DNA of 64,000 nt from Lepiota brunneoincarnata (lineage: Eukaryota > Basidiomycota > Agaricomycetes > Agaricales > Agaricaceae), in assembly GCA_023014365.1 (NCBI GenBank), contig JAEBUN010000016.1:1-64000 (forward strand), given 5' to 3'. This document shows, piece after piece, positions 11,281-63,018 of this stretch. Made by a program: the position numbers and the translations under genes. Position 1 is the first letter of the stretch; the number at the start of each line of letters is the position of its first letter. The notes under the pieces are model-generated. The model worked only from the letters and a program-made list of their open reading frames with translations. It ran no database searches and was not told the origin of the DNA.

Positions 11281-11419
11281 TCTTTACTCTAATCACATGA
11301 TTTTGTTTATTACAGCCAACTAATTGCAAATAAATGTCATGTGACTGGTTGGAATAATGTATAAATATAGCTGCTCACTTCCCTAGCTCACACCACCCCC
11401 CCAACCTTATTTTGCTATC

Positions 11420-12436
11420 ATGCAATCCCTCTCTATGACTCAATGCAACCATATTCTTTCCCTTTTGGACAAAGGCCACTCTGCTACCCATATTGCTTCT
11501 ACCACTGGTCTTGGCCTCAGCACTATATCTTGTCTTTGCTCCAAACATCATTCAACACTTTCAAAGTCACTTGGTGGCTGCCCAACCAAGCTTTCTGTTG
11601 GCAATATCAAATATACCACTCATATTATCACATCCTGCAAGGCTGAAAATGCCTCCCAAATTACCAGAACCCTTTGTACTGTCATTGACCAACCTCTATC
11701 ATCCAAAACAGTTTGCAGAGCACTCAAAAAAGCTGGAATGAAGGCTGTAGTCAAGTGGAAAAGGCCTAAACTCTCTGTTATACACAAGAGGAAAAGATTG
11801 GAGTGGGCAGAGGCACATGCAGACTGGACTCTGGAAGACTGGAAGAGGGTGGTTTGGTCAGATGAGACCAAAATCAATCGCTTAGGGTCAGATGGCAGGG
11901 TTTGGGTCTGGAAAAGAGCAGGGGAGAGGCTTAGTGATAGGCTGGTGCAGGGAACCACAAAGTTTAGAGGAGGTTCCATTATGGTATGGGGCTGTATGCT
12001 GTGGGAAGGTCCAGGGTTGGCAGCCAAGATTAATGGTAAGATGGATGGTGATCTATTTGTCACCATTTTGGAGGATGAACTCAAGGGGAGCCTGGAGTGG
12101 TATGACAAAGAGGTGGAGGATATTGTCTTTCAACAAGATAATGATCCCAAACATAGGTGCACCAAGGCTCAAAAATGGTTCAAAGCAGCTGAAATGGAGG
12201 TTATGGTGTGGCCCCCACAATCTCCAGACCTTAATCCAATTGAACATTTGTGGACTTACCTTAAAATCAAGTTAGGGGAGTATGACACTCCACCTCAGGG
12301 GATGGAAGAATTATGGGATAGGACACAAAAGGAATGGGATCAGATTCCAGCAGAAGTATGTCAGAATCTGATAGAGAGTATGCCTGATAGGGTTCAGGCT
12401 GTCTTGGATGCCAGGGGAGGGTATACAAAGTACTAA
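11420..12436 (+). CDS. Tc1/mariner-family DD34E transposase (338 aa)
   Basis: The N-terminus is a helix-turn-helix type DNA-binding region (NHILSLLDKGHSATHIASTT then a second HTH around residues 60-110). The catalytic DDE triad is D in VWSDETKINRLG (about residue 152), D in QQDNDPKH, and E in SPDLNPIEHLW. The spacing between the last two is exactly 34 residues, the Tc1 (DD34E) hallmark. Length is normal for the family. It excises and inserts the element at TA dinucleotides. No internal stops or frameshifts appear, so it may still be active. The downstream flank contains no other gene. Confidence 0.95.
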   Translation: MQSLSMTQCNHILSLLDKGHSATHIASTTGLGLSTISCLCSKHHSTLSKSLGGCPTKLSVGNIKYTTHIITSCKAENASQITRTLCTVIDQPLSSKTVCRALKKAGMKAVVKWKRPKLSVIHKRKRLEWAEAHADWTLEDWKRVVWSDETKINRLGSDGRVWVWKRAGERLSDRLVQGTTKFRGGSIMVWGCMLWEGPGLAAKINGKMDGDLFVTILEDELKGSLEWYDKEVEDIVFQQDNDPKHRCTKAQKWFKAAEMEVMVWPPQSPDLNPIEHLWTYLKIKLGEYDTPPQGMEELWDRTQKEWDQIPAEVCQNLIESMPDRVQAVLDARGGYTKY

Positions 12437-30118: not shown

Positions 30119-31623
30119 CTAATCCCATTCCTTTTGTGTCCTATCCCATAATTCTTCCATCCCCTGAGGTGGAGTGTCATACTCCCCTAACTTGATTTTA
30201 AGGTAAGTCCACAAATGTTCAATTGGATTAAGGTCTGGAGATTGTGGAGGCCACACCATAACCTCCATTTCAGCTGCTTTGAACCATTTTTGAGCCTTGG
30301 TGCACCTATGTTTGGGATCATTATCTTGTTGAAAGACAATATCCTCCACCTCTTTGTCATACCACTCCAGGCTCCCCTTGAGTTCATCCTCCAAAATGGT
30401 GACAAATAGATCACCATCCATCTTACCATTAATCTTGGCTGCCAACCCTGGACCTTCCCACAGCATACAGCCCCATACCATAATGGAACCTCCTCTAAAC
30501 TTTGTGGTTCCCTGCACCAGCCTATCACTAAGCCTCTCCCCTGCTCTTTTCCAGACCCAAAACCTGCCATCTGACCCTAAGTGATTGATTTTGGTCTCAT
30601 CTGACCAAACCACCCTCTTCCAGTCTTCCAGAGTCCAGTCTGCATGTGCCTCTGCCCACTCCAATCTTTTCCTCTTGTGTATAACTGTTATGATACATCC
30701 TTACTTTGACCTACGCCTTGGACTTCTTATGCCAAAAGTCTTTAGTTGTAATATACTAAAGCATTATGAATATCTTTTTCTTCTGTACTTTGTTTTGTTT
30801 CTTTATTATGTAACCATTTTCACTTTGATCTGTTACATAATATTTTCTCAATTTGTTATCATTTCTCATACTCTTAACTATTAATAGATAACTATGTATA
30901 GATAGTTATACTTAGATAGTTAAACATAGTTCATCCAGACTTCTTTACTTCTTTCACTCTTCTTTTGCTTCTTCCACACTTCTTTTGCTTCTCCCATACT
31001 TCTTTGATGATGTATTAATAGTAACTCTGAACAATATATAAGACCTCCAGTCAACCAAGAGAAACTCTTAAGTTTCTACTTGGTTATCTGGTGGAGATTT
31101 ACCTACTTGCTTGAACTCTTAAGTTGTCCTCTTATAAGCCTTATTCTCTAAGTTAGTGAGGAATACCTTGAGAGCTTGCAAAGAGTCTCTTCGAGTGATT
31201 GTTGACTTGGGTGAAGTTAACGATACACTCAACACCAGTTGCACTTTTGAGCATGAAGACTGGCATCACTATAACAATAACAGAGAGTTTAGGCCTTTTC
31301 TGCTTGACTACAGCCTTCATTCCAGCTTTTTTGAGTGCTCTGCAAACTGTTTTGGATGATAGAGGTTGGTCAATGACAGTATGAAGGGTTCTGGTGATTT
31401 GGGAGGCATTTTCAGCCTTGCGGGATGTGATAAGATGAGTGGCATATTTGATATTGCCAACAGAAAGCTTGGTTGGGCAGCCACCAAGTGACTTTGAAAG
31501 TGTTGAACAATGTTTGGAGCAAAGATGAGATATAGTGTTGAGGCCAAGACCAGTGGTAGAAGCAATATGGATAGCAGAGTGGCCTTTGTCCAAAAGGGAA
31601 AGAATATGGTTGCATTGAGTCAT
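30119..31623 (-). pseudogene. Tc1-like transposase of copy 2, disrupted
   Basis: The N-terminal part reads from ATG 31623 (MTQCNHILSLLDKGHSA). The upstream start used in copy 1 is followed at once by TGA here. The frame runs to about 31282, where a solo LTR is inserted after KLSVI. The C-terminal part (30680 down to 30119) retains SDETKINHLG, QQDNDPKH and SPDLNPIEHLW, and ends early where a CAG codon has become TAG (after KEWD). It is not functional. Confidence 0.93.
30686..31276. repeat. Solo LTR of a third family (591 bp) inside Tc1-like copy 2
   Basis: TGTTATGATAC...CTATAACA ends with a 5-base duplication ATAAC at 30681-30685 and 31277-31281. It contains a TATA-like TATATAAG near 31035. 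It differs in sequence from the two Gypsy LTRs above. Confidence 0.9.
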
Positions 31624-31988
31624 AGAGAGGGATCACATGTTAGCAAAATGAGGTTGGGGGGGTGGTGTGAGCTAGGGAAGTGAGCAGCTATATTTATACA
31701 TTATTCCAACCAGTCACATGACATTTATTTGCAATTAGTTGGCTGTAATAAACAAAATCATGTGATTAGAGTAAAGATGGACAAAACCCTTCCAATGACC
31801 TTAAATAATTGTTTAATTCACTGACTTCCCAAAATGGCATATGACGTAATGATATTTGGCAGGATAATACATGAGCCATATAGGTATTCCCAATCATAAT
31901 ATGAAGGTTTCACCTCTAGTAGGTGGGCAATTATTGACATATTTGTTGAAGTATAAAAATCATTGGAAGGGTTTTGTCCCTTACTGTA

Positions 31989-49200: not shown

Positions 49201-49457
49201 CCATCAATCCATCATCGGCTCACTTCCCTGATCTATTTATGGATGACATTAGCAACTCACCTCAGGAGTTAATCTTTAAGGGGCGTACCTCCCCAGCGTT
49301 GGTATATCATTTGCGGGGTGTAAGGAATACAGCTCTATAAGAACTGCACGCCATCTGAGCGCAAACAAATCCCCATCCCATTTAGACCCTAAGCTTCGTT
49401 TACTTCGCTCCTATCCCCGCTGCCCGTTGTCTCATACCACTTTCCGCAATTACATTC

Positions 49458-49679
49458 ATGGGCCCGTGAGTCGTTTTCTTTTTGACATCTCTCAGTAAAT
49501 TTCCTCATCCCGTGCACCATGTTGCCTCTCCCTCCGCTGAACTCGATCTACTCGGACCTGGAACACTTGGAAGTGGAGCCGAGAGTTCCGGTTTTTTAAT
49601 ACCTCCTCGCGAAGATGCTCCTGCTGTCAAGGGCCCGAACAAACCTCGCCCAGGTCCCAGGCCAGCCGGTAGCAAGTAA
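49458..49679 (+). CDS. Micro-peptide gene 1 (33 aa, two exons)
   Basis: Exon 1 is ATGGGCCC (49458-49465). A GTGAGT donor and a 120-base intron lead to exon 2 (49586-49679, TAA stop). The spliced product starts MGPSGFLIPPREDAP and ends VKGPNKPRPGPRPAGSK. It has no cysteine, no signal peptide and no CaaX box. Its 5' leader (AATACAGCTCTATAAGAACTG to ATTACATTC before the ATG) is strongly similar to that of gene 2, 4.5 kb away. The intron, exon 2 and 3' flank (CCATACCTAGA) are also shared. Function unknown. Confidence 0.7.
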
Positions 49680-50040
49680 CCACACCGGCATGCACGAATA
49701 GAGGGCGGTACCACAACACAGAGGAAACGAAAACCTGTCATTGATACGTAGATCGTTTGCAGTTTTTGATGATGGTCATGATGCCTTCTTTCCCCTCCCC
49801 ATTTTCGTGGCGCTTCGACTTTTCTTTTCTTTTTCACTCCTTGATGTTCCACCCTATCTCTTGGTAGAAGACATCCATGGGCCAAGGGCTTCTTTATAAC
49901 TGGTATACTCCATACCTAGATGTTGTGTACCCAATTCTTTAAAACTATCTGTACGTAGATACCGTCATCATCCGTGCACTTCTACGTCACAACTCGACAA
50001 TTTTCTACGGTTTTTAATGCCTTTGAGAACTTGAGTACCT

Positions 50041-50462
50041 TATCGCGGGAAGGGGTGGTTGCGTAAATGAGTAAGGGTGTTTACCCAGACGTCTCGAAGT
50101 ATCAAGTTTTTCGCACCACTAAACAAGGAACAGGGGGATTCTCTGGTATGAGCATGGTGCTCAGCGTCAAGACCTAGTCAAATGACCCATACCATTGTCT
50201 GCTGTGTCCATAGATTCGGGTGTGGATTGGTTTCCAGAATCCCTAGCAATCCACCATTGTTCGCGAAAGTTTTGCTACCAATCACCTCCCCGATTGAATC
50301 CAAGAAAGGCAAATTTTGCGCCGATTGGTGTGCCCACAATGACTTGAATGTGTGTCCACCTTCCTTGAATAGCAGTTCGGAGATCCAGGTGAAAAGCAAT
50401 CCACTCTAAAATAGAAAGGTGTCGTTGGTTTTTTCCCACAATAGCACTCACTGTCAGATTTC
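50041..50462. repeat. Duplicate of the Clp1-like gene's upstream region, without the gene
   Basis: Collinear and roughly 90% identical over the best 200 bases with 58134-58553. It covers ATTGGTGTGCCCACAATG, GTGTGTCCACCTTCCTT and GGTTTTTTCCCACAATAGC. Similarity stops just before the TATA box of the Clp1-like gene, and no Clp1-like coding sequence follows. A minus-strand ORF is open in both copies, but its substitutions change many residues, so it is probably not a protein gene. Confidence 0.85.
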
Positions 50463-50649
50463 CGTTGTGGTTTATTATAGTTCTTTGATTAAGTCCACAA
50501 TGGCCTATGATGTTACCAAATTCCCGGATGAGTATGCTTCCCAAAATAAATCATGATTAAGAAATCAATTGGTCAGGGCTTCTACACAAGTGTAAGGGAA
50601 TTCTCAACATCATACTCCATCATGGACTTGATGGATGGCAGTAAAACTG

Positions 50650-51060
50650 AAGCAGTTTTTAGACGTTGGGGTCCACCGGTCTGGTGCCACTGCCAATATA
50701 CATCCGAATCGGAATATTCCTGCTGTCCAGCACTTATTTGTCATCCCGATCTCACACAAGAGTATGGTGTGTTCTTCAAGGCCAATCCGAACATTCCTGT
50801 TACCGTGGCAGACGTTATGTGGTTTTCGATGATCAGAAGATAGGACATAGGGCGATTTAAGATTCACTTCGCGCGATTGATTTTTGGCATGTAGTGCAGT
50901 CAACAGCAAGCCGACTATGCTCTTACCAAGTTCCAATGCTACAGAACTGGTTGTTTAAATCGTTGGTAATGAGAAGCTCTTAAGCAAGGGTGGGATGATC
51001 CCTTTTCCATGTACGTGTAGCGCGAGAGTAACAATGTTCTCTGAGCCTTACATTTTGCGC
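50650..51060. repeat. Locally repeated non-coding block
   Basis: The segment with CATCCGAATCGGAATATTCC, TGTCCAGCACTTATTTGTCAT and GAGTATGGT...CCGAACATTCC recurs with divergence at 54940-55140 and in part at 51620-51740. The neighbouring 51280-51490 recurs at 55240-55420. No coding frame is preserved. Confidence 0.65.
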
Positions 51061-52416
51061 ATCTGGAAACCATGGAGGATTGGAACAAATCCAGGGCCGA
51101 ATGCAATCGTAGAAATGCAGTATCGTCATTGCTGAATCACATGAAAGTCAGGAGGTCGGCCGAAGTCAGTGGGGTTTTCACCTCGACCGCTACCAGTGAT
51201 GGTAGGCAGACAAGGCGGGTTGGAGGTGCAGGGATAACCTGGGGACCGTGGGATACTCGGAGACTTGGGAACGTGTGATGAACCCCATGTGGTATAGTTG
51301 CCGCTCCCCCGGTTCATTAGTAATGTCCTGCGCACCTGTAAACTTCTGGTTTATATTCTACCGATATCGGAACTGGCACTTCATCACACAGAACAAACAA
51401 ATCAAGAGCATCCGTCTATCCAATGAATTCTCCTGGGTATATACACCTTTCTGGAATTCAAGGAGCTCTATGGCCAGTCAATGTTGACTGTCACCATGAA
51501 TTTCATTCATCATGGTGATGCTTTCAGTTGTCAGTCATCCGAGAAGGGGTAATAAGTACCGGGGTCAAGCCCAGAGCGCGCCGAGAAATATTTGGGGGAC
51601 TGGGCATTGAGACTCAGTGGAGCATTCGCCCATTACTATGATTACTATGGTGGACGTTATGTGCTTTTGGATGATTAAAAGGTAGGAGATAGAGAGATTT
51701 GGGATTGGATTCGCTTCGCATAATTGAATGTTGGAGTAAAATGCGGTCAGCAAGAAGCCAAGCATGCTCGTCCGTGGTCTTACCAAGTTCCGGTGCCACG
51801 GAGCTGGTTGCTTATAGGACCAAAAATTTTAGTAACAAGGAGCCCTCAAGCAAAGGCAACAGGATCCTTGTTGCATGTATGTAGTGCGAGAGTAACGAGC
51901 CTTATGCTTCATGCATGTGGAAATTGTGGCCTGAAGGAGTTAGGACAAATCCAGGTCTGAGAACCCTTATAGAAATGCAGTATCGTTATTGCTGAGCCAC
52001 ATGAAAGTCGGGAGGTCGGCCGGAGCCGGTGGAGATCGCAGAGACTATGAGGAATTTGTTATGAACCCCACATGCCTGGTTTAGCTGTCGCTAGCAGTGT
52101 CCCGCACATCTGTAAACTCCTAATTACACCATACGGAAACCAACTGCACACTAATGCATCGGAATCGGTCACTTCATCACCCGACGTCAAACAGGTCAAA
52201 AATTTTCATCTCTCAACATTTCATGATATCTTAGTGAGCATCGGGATTGGGCATCGTGACAGCATCTAGTCATTATGTACAGTGCAAATCCAAGTAATCT
52301 CAGCGGTGAATTCAAGGATGAAACTTGGACCACAGTCAGGAGATACATCAAGCAGATTGAGGCAGTAGGAAACGACATAGCTAATCATCAGATTATCTCT
52401 CCTTAACCCGAATATT
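51061..52416. other. Repeat-rich interval without a gene
   Basis: It holds diverged copies of stretches also found at 55230-56150, for example GATATATACACCTTTCTGGAA with AGCTCTATGGCCAGTCAATG, and GAGACTCAGTGG. No gene is supported. Confidence 0.5.
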
Positions 52417-52690
52417 CTTTCCCTTAGAAAGAAGAGGGGTGCTGGAGCAGAGCCTAGGCACAACGTCAGGTCAATCGACCAAGGGAGTATGTCCAACTTA
52501 CTTACCTCGCCGTTCACATACCAATTCGAGACAAGCAATAATACAGTGTCCCCGCATCGAATCTCATTCCACCACTTTTGTTCGCAAAGGATTCAAACCG
52601 ATATACTCGGGGGGCCAGAATCGTAGAATTACCAAGGGGATTCGAAATTCCTGGAGCTGCCATCTTTGTTACGTGAAAGATCCTGTCCCT
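52417..52690 (-). pseudogene. Decayed 3' fragment of a short-chain dehydrogenase gene
   Basis: Minus strand, homologous to exons 6-7 and flanking introns of the intact gene at 56177-57455. It shows MAAPGISNPLGNSTI, RVYRFESFANKSGGMRFDAGTL, a damaged SNWYVNGE stretch and the GGGTGCTGGAGCAGAG terminal exon region. A frameshift near 52535 and loss of the DGG donor context break it, and the upstream exons are missing. Confidence 0.85.
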
Positions 52691-52729
52691 GACTTTCCAG
52701 AATGGAGCGGCGTACCCTCTATTGGGGAC

Positions 52730-53110
52730 GGCATGAGCACTCGTTATGACCCCATAATCGCCAGCGTCTGTCAACCGATGTACTTAACGGTTATTTCAGA
52801 TGACCTTGTTTATGCCCAGTCTTATCAATGAAGCTATAACTAAAATTTGAGTCTTCTAGAAAACATTGTCATGTTGAAGCATTGCGGTAATTCAACAGCC
52901 GAGGTAACCCACATCCTCCTAGTATTGAGAACCCTGAGTAGAATGTATTGACCTGTAAGGATGCAATAGAACATGCGTGTACGATTTTTTGCAGGACCTT
53001 AGGGCTGTACTTATAAAGGAAAAGCCAACCGGGAATGCATTCGTAGCCCTTGAGATCCACAAATTACCGACAGGTGGTTGCGGGCGTTCCCGTGTTCGGG
53101 GTTTGTATAT
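52730..53110. repeat. Segmental duplicate block, right copy
   Basis: Partner of 48720-49200. It begins directly after the dehydrogenase fragment, placing the boundary of a roughly 4-kb tandem unit here. Confidence 0.75.
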
Positions 53111-53969
53111 AAATAGTCGCAAACATACCGTGTCCAGGCGTTTCGCCAATATTCCTGTGTTTTAATCATGACGGTCCTTGTATGTGTAAACTCCCACGCG
53201 TCTGGAAGCAATGATGACCAGGCCGTAGCCCCGCTCGCCAGGATAACAGTCTCTGAGGACCAATGCTCTCTAGCAACTATTTCTCTCATCTCACATTAAT
53301 AATTGGCCCAGGGTCCTACATCTCGTCATGATTGCATGGGGACTATGCGTGCGCCCGAACCGCACATGTTCGGAGGAAGATCTCCTGCACTTGGCTCATC
53401 GCCCCCCTCGCGTGTATCTCGCAATGATGCGTTAATCCACGTGTGCCTTGGATTTTTGCGATAGTGCGGTTCTCATCTTCTCCACTTGCACCTGTCACCT
53501 ATTTCCGATTCCGCGACAATCATTTTACCATTGAAGCCACACAGCACTAGCCTCCTGGCTGCGGTTGAAGAATTCCATCTCTCGAAATGAGCCTCATTTT
53601 CTTCTACTTCTGCAGCAATGGTAGTCACCTCCACCGTTGGGACCCGTGTAATGCTATTACATTTCCGACTCTTCCACTGTGACTGTGTCACGTCCACGGT
53701 CATAATCTACACTCACGTTTGAATCCGATTCCTATCACCGGCAGCAGTATTTGACGGGGGGGTTGGACTCAAGCTATATATAGTCGAGGGATTCGACGTT
53801 CTCATCCTTTCCTGCTATTTGGGACACACCCAATGAATACAGCTCTTTAAGAACTGCACGCTACTATCCCACTTCAACCACACATAAACAGACGCACTCT
53901 CTAAGCTTCACTTGCGTCGCTCTCATTCCTGCTTTCCGTTGCCTCACACCGCTTTCTGCAATTACATTC

Positions 53970-54196
53970 ATGGGCCGGTGAGTCGTTTTCTTTTTGGCAT
54001 CTCTCGGGAAATTTTCTCATCCCGTACACCCTGTTGCCCCCCTCCCCCCACCTTGAACTCAATTTACTCGGACTGGGAACACTATGGAAGTGGAAACCAA
54101 AGTTCGGGTATTTTAATACCTGCTCGTGAAGATGCTCCCGTGGTCAAAGGCCCGAACAAGCCTCGCCCAGGTCCCAGTTCAGCTGACAGCAAGTGA
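53970..54196 (+). CDS. Micro-peptide gene 2 (33 aa, two exons)
   Basis: Exon 1 is ATGGGCCG (53970-53977), intron 53978-54102 (125 bases, GTGAGT...AAAG), exon 2 54103-54196 (TGA stop). The product starts MGRSGILIPAREDAP and ends VKGPNKPRPGPSSADSK, with the same length and layout as gene 1. It is preceded by a TATATATAG stretch near 53776 and by the same leader as gene 1. Relative to gene 1, several second-exon changes keep the residue (for example AAG/AAA Lys and AAA/AAG Lys), which suggests protein-level constraint, though the sample is small. Confidence 0.7.
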
Positions 54197-56176
54197 CCGC
54201 ACCAGCGCGCAAGGGTGCAGAGCTGTACCACAGTGCAAAGGAAACGAAAATTGCCTGTATGTCATACTCATGATGTCTGAATCGTTTGTAGTGTCTGATG
54301 GACATGGTGCTCCCGTCTGTGACTTAGAGGCTACAGGGCCTCATATATATGCACCATGATGACAACATGCGCACCCTCGGCCAATTTCCCATTCCGGCAG
54401 ATCTCTCTTATTTCTCTACTTTCGTGCTTCTACTTTGTTTTTGTTTTTTTGTTTTGTTTTTCCATTGCTTGATGCTCTATACTATTTGTTGGCAGAGGAC
54501 CTCTCTGGGCAGAGGGCTTCTTCATAATCACTGCACCCCATACCTAGACTTTTCCCACCCAATTCCAAATCTTTGAAATTAGCCGCACGCAGATCTCGAT
54601 CGCCTCGTATGAGAGCTCGGGTACATCTATATCAACACCCGGCTATATTCTATGCTTTTAATGCCTTTGAGAACTTGAGCACATGGGGTAGCTAGACAGC
54701 TTAGATTAACGAGAGTGTGAGTGATGTCGAACGGTAGGAGATGGAGCTCACGGCCAAGGGTTAAGTTGGCCGAGTGTGACAATTGCTGTCTTGTGCTGGC
54801 CTTATTAGAAACTGGCTGCCAACTAGCCGTCCTGACTCCCGAGAAGAACTGATCTCTCGCCTTGGGGTTATCAGACCCTAAGTCGGATACACAGTTGCAT
54901 CCCACACGATATACTACCTTGATGTCACGCACGTCAAGGCCTGGTCTCACTGCCGATTTGCATCCGTGCCAAAATACCTCTGCTGTCCAACATTCATTTG
55001 CCATTCGGATCTCATTTGAGAGTATGGTCCTTCATGGCCGATCCAAACATTCCCACTACGATGGCTGACGTTACACAGTTTTAGGTGATCCGAAGTTAGG
55101 ACCTAGGGAGATTCGGGATTCACTTCGCCGTAATTGAAATTTGGCATTTCGGGGTGCTCGGAGACTGTGAGGAACGTGTTAACAGTGCTATGAACCCTGT
55201 ATGCCTTGTATAGTAGTTGCCCTCCCGTTGGCGACGTCCCGCGCATCTGTAAATTTCTAATATCATTGTCCCGAGACCAACGGCGCATTAATGCATCGGA
55301 ACCGGTCACTTCATCGCACGGGACCAGAGGAGTCGAGAATTTTCATCTATCTCCTTGGATATATACACCTTTCTGGAAGCCAGGGAGCTCTATGACCAGT
55401 CAATGGTCATAATTTACATTTCAAGCAACTCAGGGTGCTAAAAATCCAGCTGATCCAATCGTAGATATGCTGCGTGCAGATCCCAACGAGTGAGTAGAGG
55501 TAGTGTCTTGATTCTTAAATCACCACTCATCCAAGGCCAGACTTGACCCTCCCGCGGGTGAATCCGTGGCCCCACATGCATTTCCATGAGATATTTCCCA
55601 TACATCATGCGTCCTTTCCGACTTCGTTTTCGCTGTCATGGAGCTACCAGCCGATCTAACGCTATCTAACACCGTCTCAGAGCCACGGAATCTCGGCGTG
55701 GCTCCCAAAGTCAATGATTGAGGAACCCGCCGCATAACCTGAACATCATGTCAATACACCCCCGCGGACAGGGCGGTCGAGAGGAGACTTTTTTTTTTTG
55801 CACATGTTGAGCGGCGAGTTTGACATGGTCCATTTTTCTAGATATGGCGAAACTCCGTCCAAACTCCTCGCGGTGAGTTTCAATTGCCGGTCAGCTGAGA
55901 AAGGGCAAAAGGTACTGTGGTCCAGCTCAGAGAACGCCGCGAAATCATTTGAGGGACTGGGAATTGAGACTCGGTGGGATATATCAGTGAACATCGGGAT
56001 TGGGCATCACAGCAGTATCCGACCCATGCATACAATATGAATCTGAATAGTTGGGATGTACGTCAGGAGTGAGTTCAAGGGTGAAACTTAGATTGCAGCT
56101 CGGAGATACTTCGAGTCGTAAAGCACAAAGTAGCTAATCATCGATTGATCTTTCCTTTGCCCGAATATTCTTCCCC
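54197..56176. other. Intergenic, repeat-derived
   Basis: It contains the 3' flank shared with gene 1 and the blocks listed above (54940-55140, 55240-55420, 55900-56150). No gene is supported. Confidence 0.5.
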
Positions 56177-57455
56177 TCAGAAAGAAGATGGGTGCCGGAG
56201 CAGAGTCTGTACACAAGAACGTCAGGTCAGTTTACCAAGGGAGTATGTCCAGATTACTTACCCCACCGTCAATCAGGACCGTCTCGCCATTCACATACCA
56301 ATTCGAGACAAGGAATAGTGCTAGTGTCCCCATGTCGAATCTCGTTCCACCACTTTTGTTCGCAGGCGATTCAAATCCGTATACCCGGGAGATCGGGATC
56401 GTAGAAATACCGAGGGCATTTGAGGTTCCTGGAGCTGCCATCTTTGTTGTGTTGAAGGGTTTGTCCTCTGTTGTCGGAACGAAAAGCGGCATACCTCTGT
56501 AGGGAATAGGCCCGGAGCGATACCATTAACCCTGATCCCAAGCGGGAGTAACTCGTGGGCTAAGGCGGCCGTTCCGAGCCCGATCGCGGACTTGGAGAAG
56601 ATGTAAGGGAAGGAAAATCCCCCAGTCGCAGCATCCTAGAGGCAACAATTAGGGCCCACAAAAATCTCGCACATCACCAAACACACCTTTGTCCATCCAT
56701 TCATGCTACTCGTCATTACTACTTGAGGTGCGAACTCTCTCCCCCCATTCATACGGTTCGCTGCACTTCCTGAGATCTTCCACTTCTCGAGTAATGGCAA
56801 GAAGGCGATGGTAAGCCAGTATGGTCCTACCGCATTCACTTTGTACACGTCCGAAAAGCTATCTTCGGGGATGTTATCAAAGAGTGCCTCAACAAAATCT
56901 TTCGCGGTTGGGTTTGGAGTTGATAGTTCAGGCCGCTTGAATTGACCAGCCATAATCCCGGCATTGTTGAACAGGACTGTGATACCATTTTCTTCGAGGG
57001 AAGATATGTGAGCGGCCAACCGAGCTGCTTCCGACTGTATTGCCTCGTAGTGTTAGCATACGGATACTTAATTAGGACTTGCAAGCAACTAACCTTTTTG
57101 CCGACATCCCCGACAATACCATGCAAATGACCCATTTGCGGTGAAGCGCCTTCATTGTAAGCTTTGGTCACCCTATCTCAAGATCGGTTATTCGGCCGGA
57201 ACAGTTGTGTAACACGAATCCTACCTGTCAATACGCTCGTGGTTGATATCAATAATATACACTTTTGCTCCATTTGCTGCGAGGGTCGAGCTTATCATGA
57301 GCCCGATGCCCTGCGAACACTCATAATAGACAATTGCTGAGAATAAAGACGAAGGGACTTACAGAAGCCCCCCCAGTGACAACGGCAACCACACCTCGTA
57401 AATCGAATAGACTCTGGGCAGTCAAACCCTCAAGGACATTTCGAGCGTCAGTCAT
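56177..57455 (-). CDS. NAD(P)-dependent short-chain dehydrogenase/reductase (318 aa, seven exons)
   Basis: Exons: 57455-57363, 57310-57225, 57172-57094, 57034-56687, 56635-56495, 56441-56262 and 56206-56177. The six introns are 46-59 bases with GT-AG ends, and all phases agree. Motifs: TGGASGIG nucleotide-binding loop (27-34, split by intron 1), NNAG (109-112), Ser195/196 (MTSS), catalytic Tyr213-x3-Lys217 (PYIFSK), and NGIAPGLFPTEM. The end YVNGETVLIDGGTLLRHPSSF is typical of fungal classical SDRs. Length is normal and all key residues are present. Substrate cannot be told from sequence. A dead partial copy lies at 52417-52690. Confidence 0.9.
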
Positions 57456-58133
57456 ATTGGTGGGGTCTGCAACAAGTGATTGAGATGCTGAGTATTTATC
57501 CACCCACTCCGCATTGATTTGTCAATAGACCACTCCATTATGGTAAAAACATACCCATCGCGTCATTCTAACGGTCACACGATTAGTCACATGATTGGCT
57601 CGCTCATGTTGGTGCCACGTGCTTGCCATTTGCTGGCCCGTTCTTGTTGGTCTCTCTCTGGGAACTGGCGACTAAGGAAAACTCGCGCGCAATTTATCTG
57701 GCTACTTTTCTCGTTGGCGGCGACCGTTGCCTTCCACCAAACATTCCATTCTACTTATACTAGCCCGCAATGCACCTTGCCTTGCAAATATCATTGGAAC
57801 CGCTCTCCAATACGCCATGAAAGCGTGCTTTGACGCAGTCTCATGTGGTGGACTCGTGGTTGAGGTTGATGGAATAGACGGCAGGGTCCAGTCATGCATC
57901 GCTGAGGGGTGCAGTGATACCGGTTCACTGACGGAGGCAATGCGAATGGTCAGATAAGTTGAACAGCGCAATGCCTTTCGTTAATGCTGAGCGTCTTTCT
58001 GTGAGCGCTCGAGGATGACCTCATCTTTGAATGCGACAAAGTCGTGGGGTGTTAGTAATTGGTGGGTGATAGAAGGAGTACATTGATTAAGTTGTAGTTT
58101 TCGTGTTCTCCGGAGAAGTAACTTGTACCTTAC
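57456..58133. other. Intergenic between the divergent SDR and Clp1-like genes
   Basis: The two genes point away from each other. Short ORFs here lack motifs. Confidence 0.5.
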
Positions 58134-58562
58134 CGCGGGAATAGGGTGGTTGCGTAAACGAGCAAGAGTGTTTACCTGGACGCCTCGAGGTATCGAATTC
58201 TTTGTGCCACTGAACAAGGGACAAGGGATTTCCTGGTTTGAACATGCTCGAATGACTCGTAACATTGTCCACCGTGTCCAATCTGCCATGGTCGCGAGGA
58301 CATGGATTCAAGTGTGGATTGGTTTCCAAGATCCCTGATAAGGCACCATTGTCCGTGAAAGTTTTGTTACCAATCACTTCCCCGATTGAAGCCAAGAAAG
58401 GCAAATTTTGCGCCGATTGGTGTGCCCACAATGGTCCGAATGTGTGTCCACCTTCCTTAAATGGCAGCTCTGAGATCCAGGCGAAAAGCAATCCGCCTTA
58501 AAATGGAAAAGTGTCGGTGGTTTTTTCCCACAATAGCGCTCATTGTCAAATCTGTATATAAC
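58134..58562 (+). promoter_or_regulatory. Upstream region and TATA box of the Clp1-like gene
   Basis: A TATATAA (58555-58561) lies about 97 bases before ATG 58657. The 420 bases before it are duplicated at 50041-50462 with high identity, although neighbouring duplicated blocks are much more decayed. Confidence 0.6.
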
Positions 58563-58656
58563 CAACCCCGCCCCGAGTCCCAATTTCCTTATCGCCCTCC
58601 CAGCGACTTAGCAGGCCTTCCCAACAGCAAGACTCCTCCACTACACATTCACCAAC

Positions 58657-59578
58657 ATGTTTTCCCGCCGCCAAGGAACCTCCCGCCCCGGTGCCTCCAC
58701 CTGTGGACTTGGTCAGCGCCGTCGCACAAGACGGGTTTCAAACAACGGGTGCTTCGCACCACTGGTGACCCGGCTTGCCGCCAAACACAAGCTTCAGGTC
58801 GTTTCTCGTCGTCGCGTCCCATTATCCAATATCATCACCAACAAAGCTGCTCCGTCTCAAACCCTGGAGTCCACGCTTGGACCTGAGCAGCCAATGTCCT
58901 ACCCCATTCTCCCGTTTCCCTCCACCCAGCGCGTCTGCGATGAATATCTTCGCGAGAAGCTAGCTCTCTTCAAGGACAGGTGTGTTCTATTCAAACTTGT
59001 TGATCGTGCCCATGATCTTACCCTACGACTTTAGCATGTATGCTGGCCTTCGCAATGTTCGCTACGCGAACGCGCCACAGCGCTCCGGCTTCCTTCCGAG
59101 GGAGCTCCAGATTATCATGGACGACCGCGTCGACGCCGTTCCCCCGACACACATATTTGCTGTTCACGCCGCACAAACTACCCCCAGCGCAACCAAGCGC
59201 AACGTGACACTCTATCCCGCCCACGAGATCGTCCTCTCCGCACACTGCGCCAACCTACCCAAGCTGCCAGAGTCTACCTCTGAATCTACCATTCCCGTCG
59301 TCCCCCTTGCGCTCCCTTCGCCCCAGATGTACCCTTACCTCCAGACCTACCTCTACTCCAAGGATCTCTCGAGACTCGAAAACACCCTCTTGCCAACTCC
59401 GCTACCGCTCGACGCTAGCATACTCATGAGACAGCTTTTAGCAACCTGGGGCCTTTGGGCGAATGCGTGCGCTCTAGGCGTTGTGGATGCTCCTCTGTAC
59501 GAGATGATTGACCGTGTTTGGTCGAGAATTCGACAATCGATTCATACGGCCCGGTCATCATCACGGTCATCGAACTAG
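58657..59578 (+). CDS. Clp1-like (clampless1 family) protein, 288 aa, two exons
   Basis: Exons 58657-58979 and 59035-59578; intron of 55 bases (GTGTGT...TTTAG), joined in frame as LFKDS-MYAGLRNVRY. The N-terminus is basic (MFSRRQGTSRPG, GQRRRTRR). The middle and C-terminal parts hold hydrophobic blocks I associate with basidiomycete Clp1 proteins: TLYPAHEIVLSAHCANLP (about 166-183), VVPLALPSPQMYPYLQTYLY and a closing WGLWANACALGVVDAPLYEMI. In Coprinopsis, Clp1 is needed for clamp development downstream of the A mating-type genes. Assignment is from memory of the family pattern, not a search; at 288 residues it is shorter than the Coprinopsis protein. Confidence 0.6.
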
Positions 59579-60033
59579 ATCTTGTGGGAAGCGCCCCTAC
59601 ATTCGGGGTATTAGAATAGAAATTCCAAACGATAATAAGATATGACTATGTAGATGTTAATAACTACGCATACATATGTAGTTTTATGTTCGCATTTTGC
59701 AACACAATCCAGGTTGGATATACTTGCCCCTATTGAACGTCTGAATTCGTGAACTGTCAAAGCAAATATCCATATGTTCATGGCACTGCCGAACCTCAAT
59801 GTGATCGGTCATTTTCTATAACATTCAAATTTTACCTACGGCATAGCACAGAACTTTCCAGAACATGAACAAAAGGAGAAAAAGACAAAGACCCCCCGGG
59901 TCTATAATTAGGCAGTGACATTTATGTGTTATACCAATGCGAGAAGTAAAGAGTAGCTAGAAGTCGGTGTTGTGTCCGCCGTCAACAGGACGTACGGCAT
60001 CCCACCATGCTGTTGCTGCTGCTACCGCGCCGG
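59579..60033. other. Intergenic between convergent genes
   Basis: AT-rich 3' flanks of the Clp1-like gene and micro-peptide gene 3. No gene seen. Confidence 0.5.
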
Positions 60034-60221
60034 TCATTTGCTACCAGCTGGTTTGGGACCTGGGCCTGGGTTGCGTGGGCCTTTGATGGTGGTAGCGCCG
60101 CCACCCTGGGGGTTGTTTATACCCCCACCTTGAAGTGCGCTGTGACGGAAAGCCAACAGGAAGAAATATATATGAGGAGAGGATTTTCGCGTCATTGATG
60201 TAGTGGTACATACTGGCCCAT
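60034..60221 (-). CDS. Micro-peptide gene 3 (37 aa, two exons)
   Basis: Minus strand. Exon 1 is ATGGGCCA (60221-60214), intron 60213-60140 (74 bases, GTATGT...CACAG), exon 2 60139-60034 (TGA). The product starts MGHALQGGGINNPQGGG and ends IKGPRNPGPGPKPAGSK. It shares exon layout and C-terminal motif with genes 1 and 2, but the leader, intron and N-terminal half are unrelated at DNA level. It is therefore an old paralog with a conserved tail rather than a recent duplicate. Unlike them it is Gly-rich. Confidence 0.7.
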
Positions 60222-62658
60222 TACTATGAACGTGACAAATGCGCATGAGCGGCCTAGGGTACTGGAGACATGTTTTGCGACTCACTGCTTTAGGGTGACG
60301 TGGAATGGGGCGAGTAAGCTTGTCTAAGGGAACAGATCGGGTGGCGGAAATACTGGTAATATAGGTCAATAGCTGGTTTGAAAACTCGCACTCCCAGAAA
60401 GACGGACACAGAAGAGCTACCGTTTAACTCGTAGGGCTGAAATCGGAGGTGTGGACGCCGACAATGAGAAAGGGACAATGAGAAGGAACTCGATGGTGGG
60501 TTATAACTGGAGAGACATGGTACCAACCTATATAAACGAGTCCGAACGCAGCACATCTCCATGAAAGTGAACAAGCCAAATTGTACACATCTCGGTAATG
60601 AATCTGGGAAGCAATGATGAACATTCACCGTTATATTTTTGGGAATCAGGCTTTGTGACAATGTATGGCATCCCTCACAAGGGATGGTGCTGTAACACGA
60701 GCCATTTATCACTGCGGAGATTATCAAGAACGTGAATCACGCAATGAGTCATGACCCAGTCTCAGTGAGTGCGTCGGAGATTGTTGGAGAGCGGCGGTCA
60801 GCGTGACTGTGTCGGAGATGTCCAACACTCGAGAAGTCATGCAAACAATGGTTGACACAGTTTAGTACGGCCCGGCGTCTGACGGGGTCAGCCGCATTGG
60901 TGTAGGCAGTCCTCTTGGGGTGGGCTTGGTTCGTACGGGAATCATCGAACCCGCACACCGAAGAACTGTCCAACTCGGGTTCATGAAGTTGGATGCATTC
61001 CGACTTGGTTCAGATACCACCACTCTTCCACGCCACCCACTGACCCACCAATCAAGATCCCCAAATAACACAGATCGAGTTTCATCTCGTTGATGTTGGT
61101 GCGCGGCCCCGATGGTTTTTCGTTTTAGGGTCCCTTGGTGTGGGTACCTCGGCCAAGAGTAGTAAGTACGGACCACATACACGATCACCAGGGACATGCG
61201 GATAAGAAAGAATGGAAAGAAGCTGATATTTCTCGACAATGATTGACTGGTTGTGGGACACAACAATTCCCCGCTGGGATAGTTGGAAATGGTAGACCCG
61301 ACAATGGCGAGCAGAGTGAACAGAATCCCCAAAAGATGTGACTTCTTGACAGTCACGTGATTGCATAGATCGCCTCGTCATCGCCTCGTCTGCACGTCGC
61401 CTGACTGTCAATAGCAACTACGATGGCCGGTTCCTGTCTTCTTATGTCTAAAATCTTGTCATGCGAAGGGGTGGGATTATGGTATCAATTCTAAGGATTC
61501 CTACTTGTCACCTGTTCTATTCGCTGTATCTCACTTGAATAATTACAGTCGGTGCCCTTCAGACTCCGATGTTCACCCCCGTTCCTTTACAGTGAGGTGT
61601 ACGCTTATTCCCTGCTATTGATAGCCATTGGAACCTTGTTGCATGGGATTCAGCCTTAGTTCAAACAAGGTTATCTGTTGTATAGTGTACAAGCATTGGG
61701 GTTGCAACGCACTCTCAATACTACCCTTCGAGGAGGGTTACAGCATTGATCTACACCCCGGAAGTCAATCATATGATAACAGTAACAATGGAGTAACAAT
61801 GGAATGAACCCAAGGCTACCCCTTGCAACGTGAGATTCATCATACTATAACTGATATATATGATGAATACTGCCTTAGAATGATCATCACAGGCTAGCTG
61901 CGAGAATCAAACCGCCATAATTCTCAGCCCATCGTAACCCCCCGTAACAACACCAAACCACTCGAAAGTACTCTGGATAGGTTATTGATCTTGGTTAACC
62001 GTGGTACAACCGAGATGGTGGGCTAGCTGTTGATTCCAAATAGTTCGTGAGTACATAAGCATCTATCACAAGCACATCAGTTATCCACAATCTTATATAT
62101 ATACCTTATCAAAAGGTCAAAGATCAGTATCAGGTAGAACAAATGGTGGGGATGCTATTCGCAAAACGCTGAAACCGGACAAGTTCCAAACACTAGAGGT
62201 GTGGCTCCACCGCGTGTCCATATGCCACCATAAATCAAAATGCACGGGAAATGAAGAAAGCGCAGCTTAATTTCTCCTTTCTTGCCCATGCCAACACAAG
62301 GAAAAAACCGCAGCATACTTATCGGATCATGTTAAATATTGAGCCGTACTAGCTTCCCAACACAATGTCACGGAGGGCGACCACCCCACTGAACTTCAAA
62401 CTCCCATCTCTAGGGATTGGCAGTACCGCAGCCCACGCCTCTTGAGCCAGTTGAGCCAGGACTCCGGATAGGTGAACAAGTCCCACTCATTTGCATTGGT
62501 TCACAAATGGGTCTGAGCTCAAAATACGGATAGCAGTATTCGCAGACACTGTCGAGTAAGAACATACATTAGCGGCGGAGGCTGGCTTTCTTTGATCCAT
62601 GATCTCAGAAGTTGGACCGGGGGGGGAGTTGAACACGACATTCACAAATGCGAGATAT
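60222..62658. other. Gene-poor interval
   Basis: No supported gene. One open stretch (61356-60862 minus) with hydrophobic segments was considered and not accepted. Confidence 0.45.
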
Positions 62659-63018
62659 TCAGGCTGAGAGTAAGAAATACATAGCAAAATCGTAAAAGCT
62701 GAACGAGCGAGAGTGAACCATATTTACATACCATGTTCTTTCTGAAGGGTGAAAAGCCAAGTTAGTCGGCAAAGTGATCGAATATATTCCTTCCTTCGAG
62801 TTATATACGACGTATGCGCACGCGGACACTGCTGACAACCGCCGTCTGGGATCCTGGCCTGGGATTCTCGGGCCTTTGACAACGGTGGCGTCGCTGTATG
62901 GAGGATTTGTGACACCTGCAGCTTGAGCCCCGCTTCATGGTGGTAAATGCGCCGCAACAGGAGGGCATCGTTCCAGAGGTTCGACGGATGAAAAATCCAA
63001 AAGGAACGCACCGTCCAT
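62659..63018 (-). CDS. Micro-peptide gene 4, divergent or extended (87 aa by simple reading)
   Basis: Exon 1 is ATGGACG (63018-63012), donor GTGCGT, intron 63011-62916 (96 bases, ending CTGCAG), exon 2 from 62915. The product starts MDGVTNPPYSDATVVKGP, then RIPGQDP, matching the INNP...ATTIKGPRNPGPGP part of gene 3. After this the sequence no longer encodes the AGSK end, and the frame runs on to TGA 62659-62661 with unrelated residues. Either the end has decayed or another intron exists. Confidence 0.5.

Follow-up and report, generated by a model that had tools for sequence, protein, structure and literature searches.

Predicted gene models

The DNA stretch analysed in this work (the window, 64,000 nucleotides (nt) long) comprises bases 1-64,000 of contig C10 in the Lepiota brunneoincarnata genome assembly of 55.6 Mb and 95 contigs. 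Between 49 and 63 kb it carries four copies (g1 to g4) of a family of very small predicted genes, in which a first coding exon of 7 or 8 nt is separated by an intron from a second exon encoding a shared C-terminal tail, and the family continues past the window end on C10. The four loci, together with their GTRNGT donors and the common tail, had been pointed out in an earlier note on this DNA and were all found in place; two further copies outside the window, g5 and g6, make the family larger than the four known at that stage.

The first coding exon of g1 (49458..49465, plus strand) consists of 8 nt, ATGGGCCC, and runs into a GTGAGT donor. The predicted phase-2 intron of 108 nt (49466..49573) ends in TGGAAG, an acceptor picked by homology to g5, and exon 2 (49574..49679) completes a product of 37 amino acids (aa), MGPGAESSGFLIPPREDAPAVKGPNKPRPGPRPAGSK. 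In g2, also on the plus strand, the 8-nt exon ATGGGCCG (53970..53977) with the donor GTGAGT is followed by a predicted intron of 113 nt (53978..54090) and by exon 2 (54091..54196), to give the 37-aa product MGRGNQSSGILIPAREDAPVVKGPNKPRPGPSSADSK. The g3 gene is located on the minus strand and comprises the 8-nt exon ATGGGCCA (60214..60221), the donor GTATGT, a predicted 74-nt intron (60140..60213) ending in TCACAG and exon 2 (60034..60139), with the product MGHALQGGGINNPQGGGATTIKGPRNPGPGPKPAGSK, again of 37 aa. By eye, a possible extra intron starting GTGAGTCG was noticed just upstream of the tiny exon of g3 (window 60224-60285, minus strand) and of g6 (C10:104737-104794).

The g4 locus (62659..63018, minus strand), proposed previously as a divergent copy, is present and turned out to be degenerate. 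Its exon 1, ATGGACG (63012-63018), is 7 nt long, one base short of the others; it is followed by the donor GTGCGT and a frame-keeping 90-nt intron (62922-63011), the predicted product has 89 aa, and the homology in the tail is lost after KGPRIPG. The tiny first exon announced as 7-8 bases is there, with 8 nt (not 7) in g1-g3 and 7 nt in g4. Outside the window, g5 (C10:66,982-66,745, minus strand) has an 8-nt exon 1, the donor GTACGT, a predicted intron at C10:66905-66974 and a 55-aa product, MAPGAQGGGILSANTPRSSTTGVVKGPRSVGPDPKMAGSKGKHPCMSNTAMWGAE, and g6 (C10, from about 104,808, plus strand) shows GTCGCTCC followed by GTATGT at the exon-1 site, the start codon being lost.

An 8-nt first coding exon and a GTRNGT donor are thus common to g1, g2, g3 and g5. 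Two frame-keeping acceptors are available in both g1 and g2, leading to a product of either 37 or 33 aa. The 37-aa acceptor (TGGAAG) was favoured because the g1 sequence MGPGAESSG can then be aligned with MAPGAQGGG of g5, the intron-split Pro codon included, and P-G-A-[QE] agrees between these two copies across the exon junction. The size range of 33-37 residues given before for the best products holds for g3 at 37 aa, and should be corrected to 37 for g1 and g2 on the basis of this homology.

The segment holding g1 (49322..49733, plus strand) is 78 % identical to that holding g2 (53832..54250, plus strand), both being parts of a tandem segmental duplication, so the likeness of g1 and g2 alone is weak evidence for the family. 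The most conserved stretch between the two segments, with 8 differences in 80 columns, lies at window positions 49440-49519 and about 53952-54031 and covers the end of the 5' untranslated region, the 8-nt exon and the early intron. Contig C29 has a counterpart of the g1-g5 stretch of C10, which shares about 99 % identity with it over 30 kb and stops short of g6; it is either the alternative haplotype or an overlap that was left unmerged in the assembly.

Occurrence in the genome and homology searches

Three protein queries from the family were compared with the whole assembly at an expectation value (E) of up to 10 and gave at least 6, 10 and 5 matches, respectively (only the best candidates were scored), all of them on C10 at 49-105 kb or on the C29 counterpart, a concentration that goes beyond chance. 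A local profile built from g1-g5 was run on the six frames of C10:1-124,000; it recovers these five copies by construction and, beyond them, detects g6 (E 0.0009), followed by a match with E 0.22. The latter, the frame GGIVHPSSTVAGGTRVKGPKPKR located near g6 at C10:103028-103174, was not taken as a seventh copy and is perhaps a vestige or the end of another gene. The combination of ATGGNNNN with GTRNGT occurs six times in 80 kb of C10, both strands considered, and four of the six occurrences are g1, g2, g3 and g5. A DNA pattern of the tail was found once in the whole genome, on C25; this pattern was too narrow and missed true copies.

Many dispersed copies would be expected for a sequence carried by a transposon, but the g2 and g3 regions, compared as DNA, match C10 and C29 only, save for 109 nt: C47 matches the first 109 nt of the g2-region query, a piece which ends approximately 160 nt upstream of the g2 ATG. 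Neither of the two origins that were considered damaging for the family at the outset, a transposon or a larger known protein, was encountered, since no relative was recognized in Pfam or the PDB either. The Pfam-A search returned no match at E<=10 for five proteins (g1, g2, g3, g5 and part of g6), and the three PDB matches obtained by sequence (E 0.51-1.7) were judged to be due to chance.

Family alignments were also used to look for protein homologues in a database which does contain agaric proteins. The first search yielded no candidates sharing three words with the query and the second yielded four, none of them at E<=10, a null result which is weak because genes of 37 aa seldom appear in annotations and candidates had to share three exact words of 5 residues. 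No match was found in a plasmid collection, which is uninformative for this family. Among the papers listed by literature searches none dealt with the family, and a text search for four tail strings gave no papers. The family appears to be a new lineage-restricted orphan microprotein family, orphan microprotein families as such being already known. Its designation as undescribed is based on the two protein searches and the tail-string search and has to be read with the ease with which genes of this size, usually unannotated, could escape protein searches.

Properties of the predicted products

The head of the predicted products, M-[GA]-x-x-x-[QE]-[SG]-[SG]-G-[IF], is loosely conserved; it is followed by a conserved Pro, a variable block of seven residues and the 17-residue tail, [VI]-K-G-P-[NR]-x-x-x-P-[GD]-P-x-x-A-[GD]-S-K. 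The Pro precedes [VI]KGP by exactly 8 residues in five of the six copies (g1-g5), at position 13 or, in g5, at position 16. The five seven-residue blocks in g1-g5 are PREDAPA, AREDAPV, QGGGATT, PYSDATV and RSSTTGV, and are mostly polar or rich in Gly, Ser and Thr. The N-terminal half of g3, thought originally to be unrelated to the other copies, has G9, P13 and A18 in common with g1 and g2 and QGGGI in common with g5, so this view had to be abandoned.

The products of g1, g2, g3 and g5 are basic, with an isoelectric point (pI) of 10.0-11.3, and Gly and Pro make up 29-46 % of their residues. None of these four products shows a hydrophobic stretch, a dibasic site or a myristoylation pattern, the maximal hydropathy over 15 residues being 0.54; it is on hydropathy that the judgement about signal peptides rests. 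The C-terminal ends are SK in g1-g3 and AE in g5, with no CaaX box, and the only Cys among the four is in the C-terminal extension of g5. The lack of a signal peptide and of a CaaX box, asserted in the earlier note, is in line with these data, whereas the asserted lack of Cys does not extend to g5. The 40-residue exon-2 frame of g1 and two paralogues were used as the input for AlphaFold2. The resulting model had a mean predicted local distance difference test score (pLDDT) of 67.9 and a predicted template modelling score (pTM) of 0.16, and no secondary structure was reported for it (DSSP returned nothing at all).

Conservation among the paralogues

To assess conservation at the protein level, 37 aligned codons of g1, g2, g3 and g5 (three g5 codons were dropped) were subjected to 20,000 permutations of the nucleotide columns. 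The observed BLOSUM similarity of 564, as compared with a null mean of 280 (standard deviation 57), was reached in none of the 20,000 permutations and the identity count in one of them. Pairwise differences in this set numbered 68, 72 and 112 at the first, second and third codon position, respectively. Over the coding sequence the ratio of non-synonymous to synonymous differences (pN/pS) was 0.37-0.85, so that synonymous changes exceeded non-synonymous ones in all six pairs, and the excess was significant in five of them (one-sided Fisher test, p<0.05; the counts were rounded and the pairs are not independent). The coding sequences of g1, g2, g3 and g5, 510 bp in total, are the same on C10 and C29, although about 3 differences would be expected (P=0.047); this count leaves out the degenerate g4, which has 2 differences in a 660-bp stretch. 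Selection acting on the family at the protein level is supported by these sequence comparisons, and the proposal that the tail is conserved as protein, for which a synonymous versus non-synonymous comparison of the paralogues had been suggested as a check, finds support in both the permutation test and the synonymous excess.

Interpretation

The gene family is probably real. The explanation favoured here, which we rate at about an even chance, is that its members are disordered microproteins, confined to this lineage and multiplied by local duplication, with the 17-residue tail serving as a docking motif. A disordered intracellular microprotein was preferred because of the absence of a Pfam, PDB or protein relative, of predicted secondary structure and of hydrophobic, dibasic or myristoylation features in the searches described above. 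Protein-coding genes, for which the number of copies, the common layout and the protein-level selection speak, would have increased in number through local duplications within a single contig. Each gene would give a short mRNA with a first coding exon of 8 nt (ATG plus 5 nt) and a phase-2 intron, and we infer that its splicing and translation produce a basic, Gly/Pro-rich, disordered microprotein of 37 residues in the case of g1-g3 and 55 in the case of g5. Such a peptide would presumably remain in the cytosol or the nucleus, where the tail might act as a short linear motif docking on a partner protein and the variable block as a spacer.

Orphan (lineage-restricted) microprotein families consist of very short, disordered and locally duplicated proteins without a detected homologue. 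The present family resembles them in all these respects and differs in its conserved 8-nt first exon and in the Pro-x7-[VI]KGP arrangement. It also resembles microexon genes, whose exons of <=15 nt are, according to the account given in PMC8831610, often missed by annotation; here, in contrast, the tiny exon is the one that carries the start codon in every intact copy. If expressed, the genes would form a family with the start codon in an 8-nt exon, and would, like any relatives in other mushrooms, go unnoticed by annotation pipelines in which tiny exons are missed; the conserved tail could be used as a search probe for such genes.

Several observations weigh against the microprotein interpretation. 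The exons and their splicing are predictions made from the genomic sequence. Both g1 and g2 have an AAG acceptor that is preceded by few pyrimidines. The branch-point patterns that were looked for occur in none of g2, g5 and g6, and in g1 far upstream only. Two of the six copies, g4 and g6, look decayed, and in g6, as judged by eye, Gly replaces the conserved Pro. Because no homologue was found beyond this genome, the evidence of conservation comes entirely from paralogues, and in the g2-g3 pair the synonymous excess is not significant (p=0.30). The predicted intron has diverged between g1 and g2 at 15 of 108 positions, in comparison to 56 of 190 in the flanks (p=0.003) and 20 of 114 in the coding sequence. 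A purely protein-level constraint therefore does not explain the conservation of this intron; behind the conserved start and intron of g1 and g2 there may be gene conversion or an element that acts in splicing or expression. The confidence of the AlphaFold2 model climbs along the chain to a mean pLDDT of 82 for the ten residues at the C-terminal end, so that the tail as modelled is not featureless. Finally, the docking function is a guess derived from disorder and conservation, with no partner domain or class indicated.

Alternatively, the copies could be short non-coding transcripts or regulatory DNA in which the open frame is incidental. This is unlikely, even though g1 and g2 are better conserved in the intron and at the 5' end than in their flanks, the products are tiny and two copies have decayed, since neither the outcome of the codon-column permutations nor the synonymous excess would be expected of such elements. 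Folding of the intron RNAs gave nothing convincing, with z scores relative to shuffled sequences of 1.7 for g1 and 1.1 for g2 (worse than shuffled) and -1.4 for g3 (modestly better), and window positions 40,000-64,000 contain nothing that Rfam recognizes at its gathering threshold.

It is rather improbable that the products are precursors of ribosomally made, Pro-cut and perhaps cyclic peptides, with the head forming a leader up to the conserved Pro, the variable block a 7-residue core and the tail a 17-residue follower, to be cut by a prolyl oligopeptidase in a manner like that of the MSDIN precursors but outside the MSDIN family. The MSDIN precursors, as they are presented in PMC5159998, have 33-37 aa, divided into a leader of 10 aa, a core of 6-10 aa and a follower of 17 aa, and are processed by a specialised oligopeptidase acting at two Pro residues (PMC5159998; PMC6408872 on Lepiota). 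The likeness to this system as described in PMC5159998 lies in the following: g1-g3 have 37 aa and no signal peptide, the paralogues form a local cluster, in all five of g1-g5 the conserved Pro precedes a short variable block, and the conserved tail has 17 residues. Two divergent loci with an S9 oligopeptidase N-domain are also present in the genome (C14:2796714-2798243 and C35:13610-15155), but both are on contigs other than C10 and could be of class A, B or C, whereas it is a specialised oligopeptidase B that acts on MSDIN precursors.

There are, however, several differences from the MSDIN precursors. The products of g5 (55 aa) and of the degenerate g4 (89 aa) do not fit the MSDIN size range. 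A comparison with the MSDIN leader of 10 aa, which ends in a conserved Pro, points both ways: a Pro is present at position 13 (16 in g5), with Gly in its place in g6, while the leader length is another and the start of the head differs from the residues that gave MSDIN its name. The MSDIN core also ends in Pro, whereas a Pro near the end of the block, one residue before it, is present in g1 and g2 only, two of five copies, with none in g3, g4 and g5, and the polar or Gly/Ser/Thr-rich composition of most blocks is a further point against a released core. The MSDIN follower contains two spaced Leu, usually a terminal Cys and a predicted helix, whereas the Gly/Pro-rich tails of g1, g2, g3 and g5 contain neither Leu nor Cys, and no helix was reported in the AlphaFold2 model, for which DSSP returned nothing at all. 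The MSDIN intron is situated in the fourth codon from the end, at the 3' side, whereas the intron predicted here follows the 8th coding base. In addition, pN/pS in the middle block was 0.35-1.12 and thus not clearly above 1. The family does not belong to MSDIN, and a similar way of working is unlikely. Slightly less probable still is a separate, novel class of ribosomal peptide precursors in agarics, not part of MSDIN, where the conserved Pro would serve to free the 7-residue core from the 17-residue Gly/Pro follower and the gene would be split right after the start codon.

Equally doubtful as the Pro-cut precursors is the possibility that the tail is the end of longer proteins, unspliced or differently spliced, and that the 8-nt exon is a coincidence. 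In some copies exon 2 does lie within a long stop-to-stop frame (102 codons in g2, 129 in g3, 136 in g4 and 175 in g6, as compared with 69 in g1 and 58 in g5). The occurrence of ATGGNNNN with GTRNGT at the same place in four copies is not explained in this way, and the frame is not kept by reading through the intron: the predicted introns of g1 and g2 differ by 5 nt in length, which breaks the frame, and in-frame stops are present in the g5 intron. An unspliced long frame was rejected on the grounds of this frame break and these stops.

Secreted peptide signals, either pheromone-like or Kex2-processed, could likewise be small, clustered and paralogous, but they are very improbable here, since basidiomycete pheromone precursors end in CaaX and Kex2-processed secreted peptides have a signal peptide and dibasic sites, whereas the products of g1, g2, g3 and g5 end in SK or AE, have no hydrophobic N-terminal stretch and are, in four cases of four, devoid of dibasic sites.

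Neighbourhood of the family

The tandem segmental duplication with g1 and g2 also carries part of a dehydrogenase-like gene. This short-chain dehydrogenase-like gene lies at window positions 56063-57500 (minus strand), and a partial copy of one of its ends, at 52300-52670, shows that it was duplicated together with g2 and g1; its Pfam adh_short score was 19.7 bits, below the cut-off of 26.6. A 430-bp segment is repeated at 80 % identity at window positions 50028-50459 and 58120-58551. The second repeat copy is located directly upstream of a gene predicted at 58.66-59.58 kb, neither of whose two frames matched Pfam.

Retroelement-like frames, as judged by eye, crowd the first third of the window. 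A transposase frame, which we take to be of the Tc1/mariner-like type, and related pieces on the other strand were found at window positions 11387-12436 and 30119-31632. A search for 5.8S rRNA, intended to place the organism, gave nothing. Between these elements and the family, at 37.6-39.1 kb, there is a frame of a SWIRM-domain (RSC8/Ssr2-like) gene, which points to an Agaricaceae mushroom as the most likely source, since its three best protein matches come from Macrolepiota (71 % identity), Leucocoprinus (67 %) and Agaricus (68 %).

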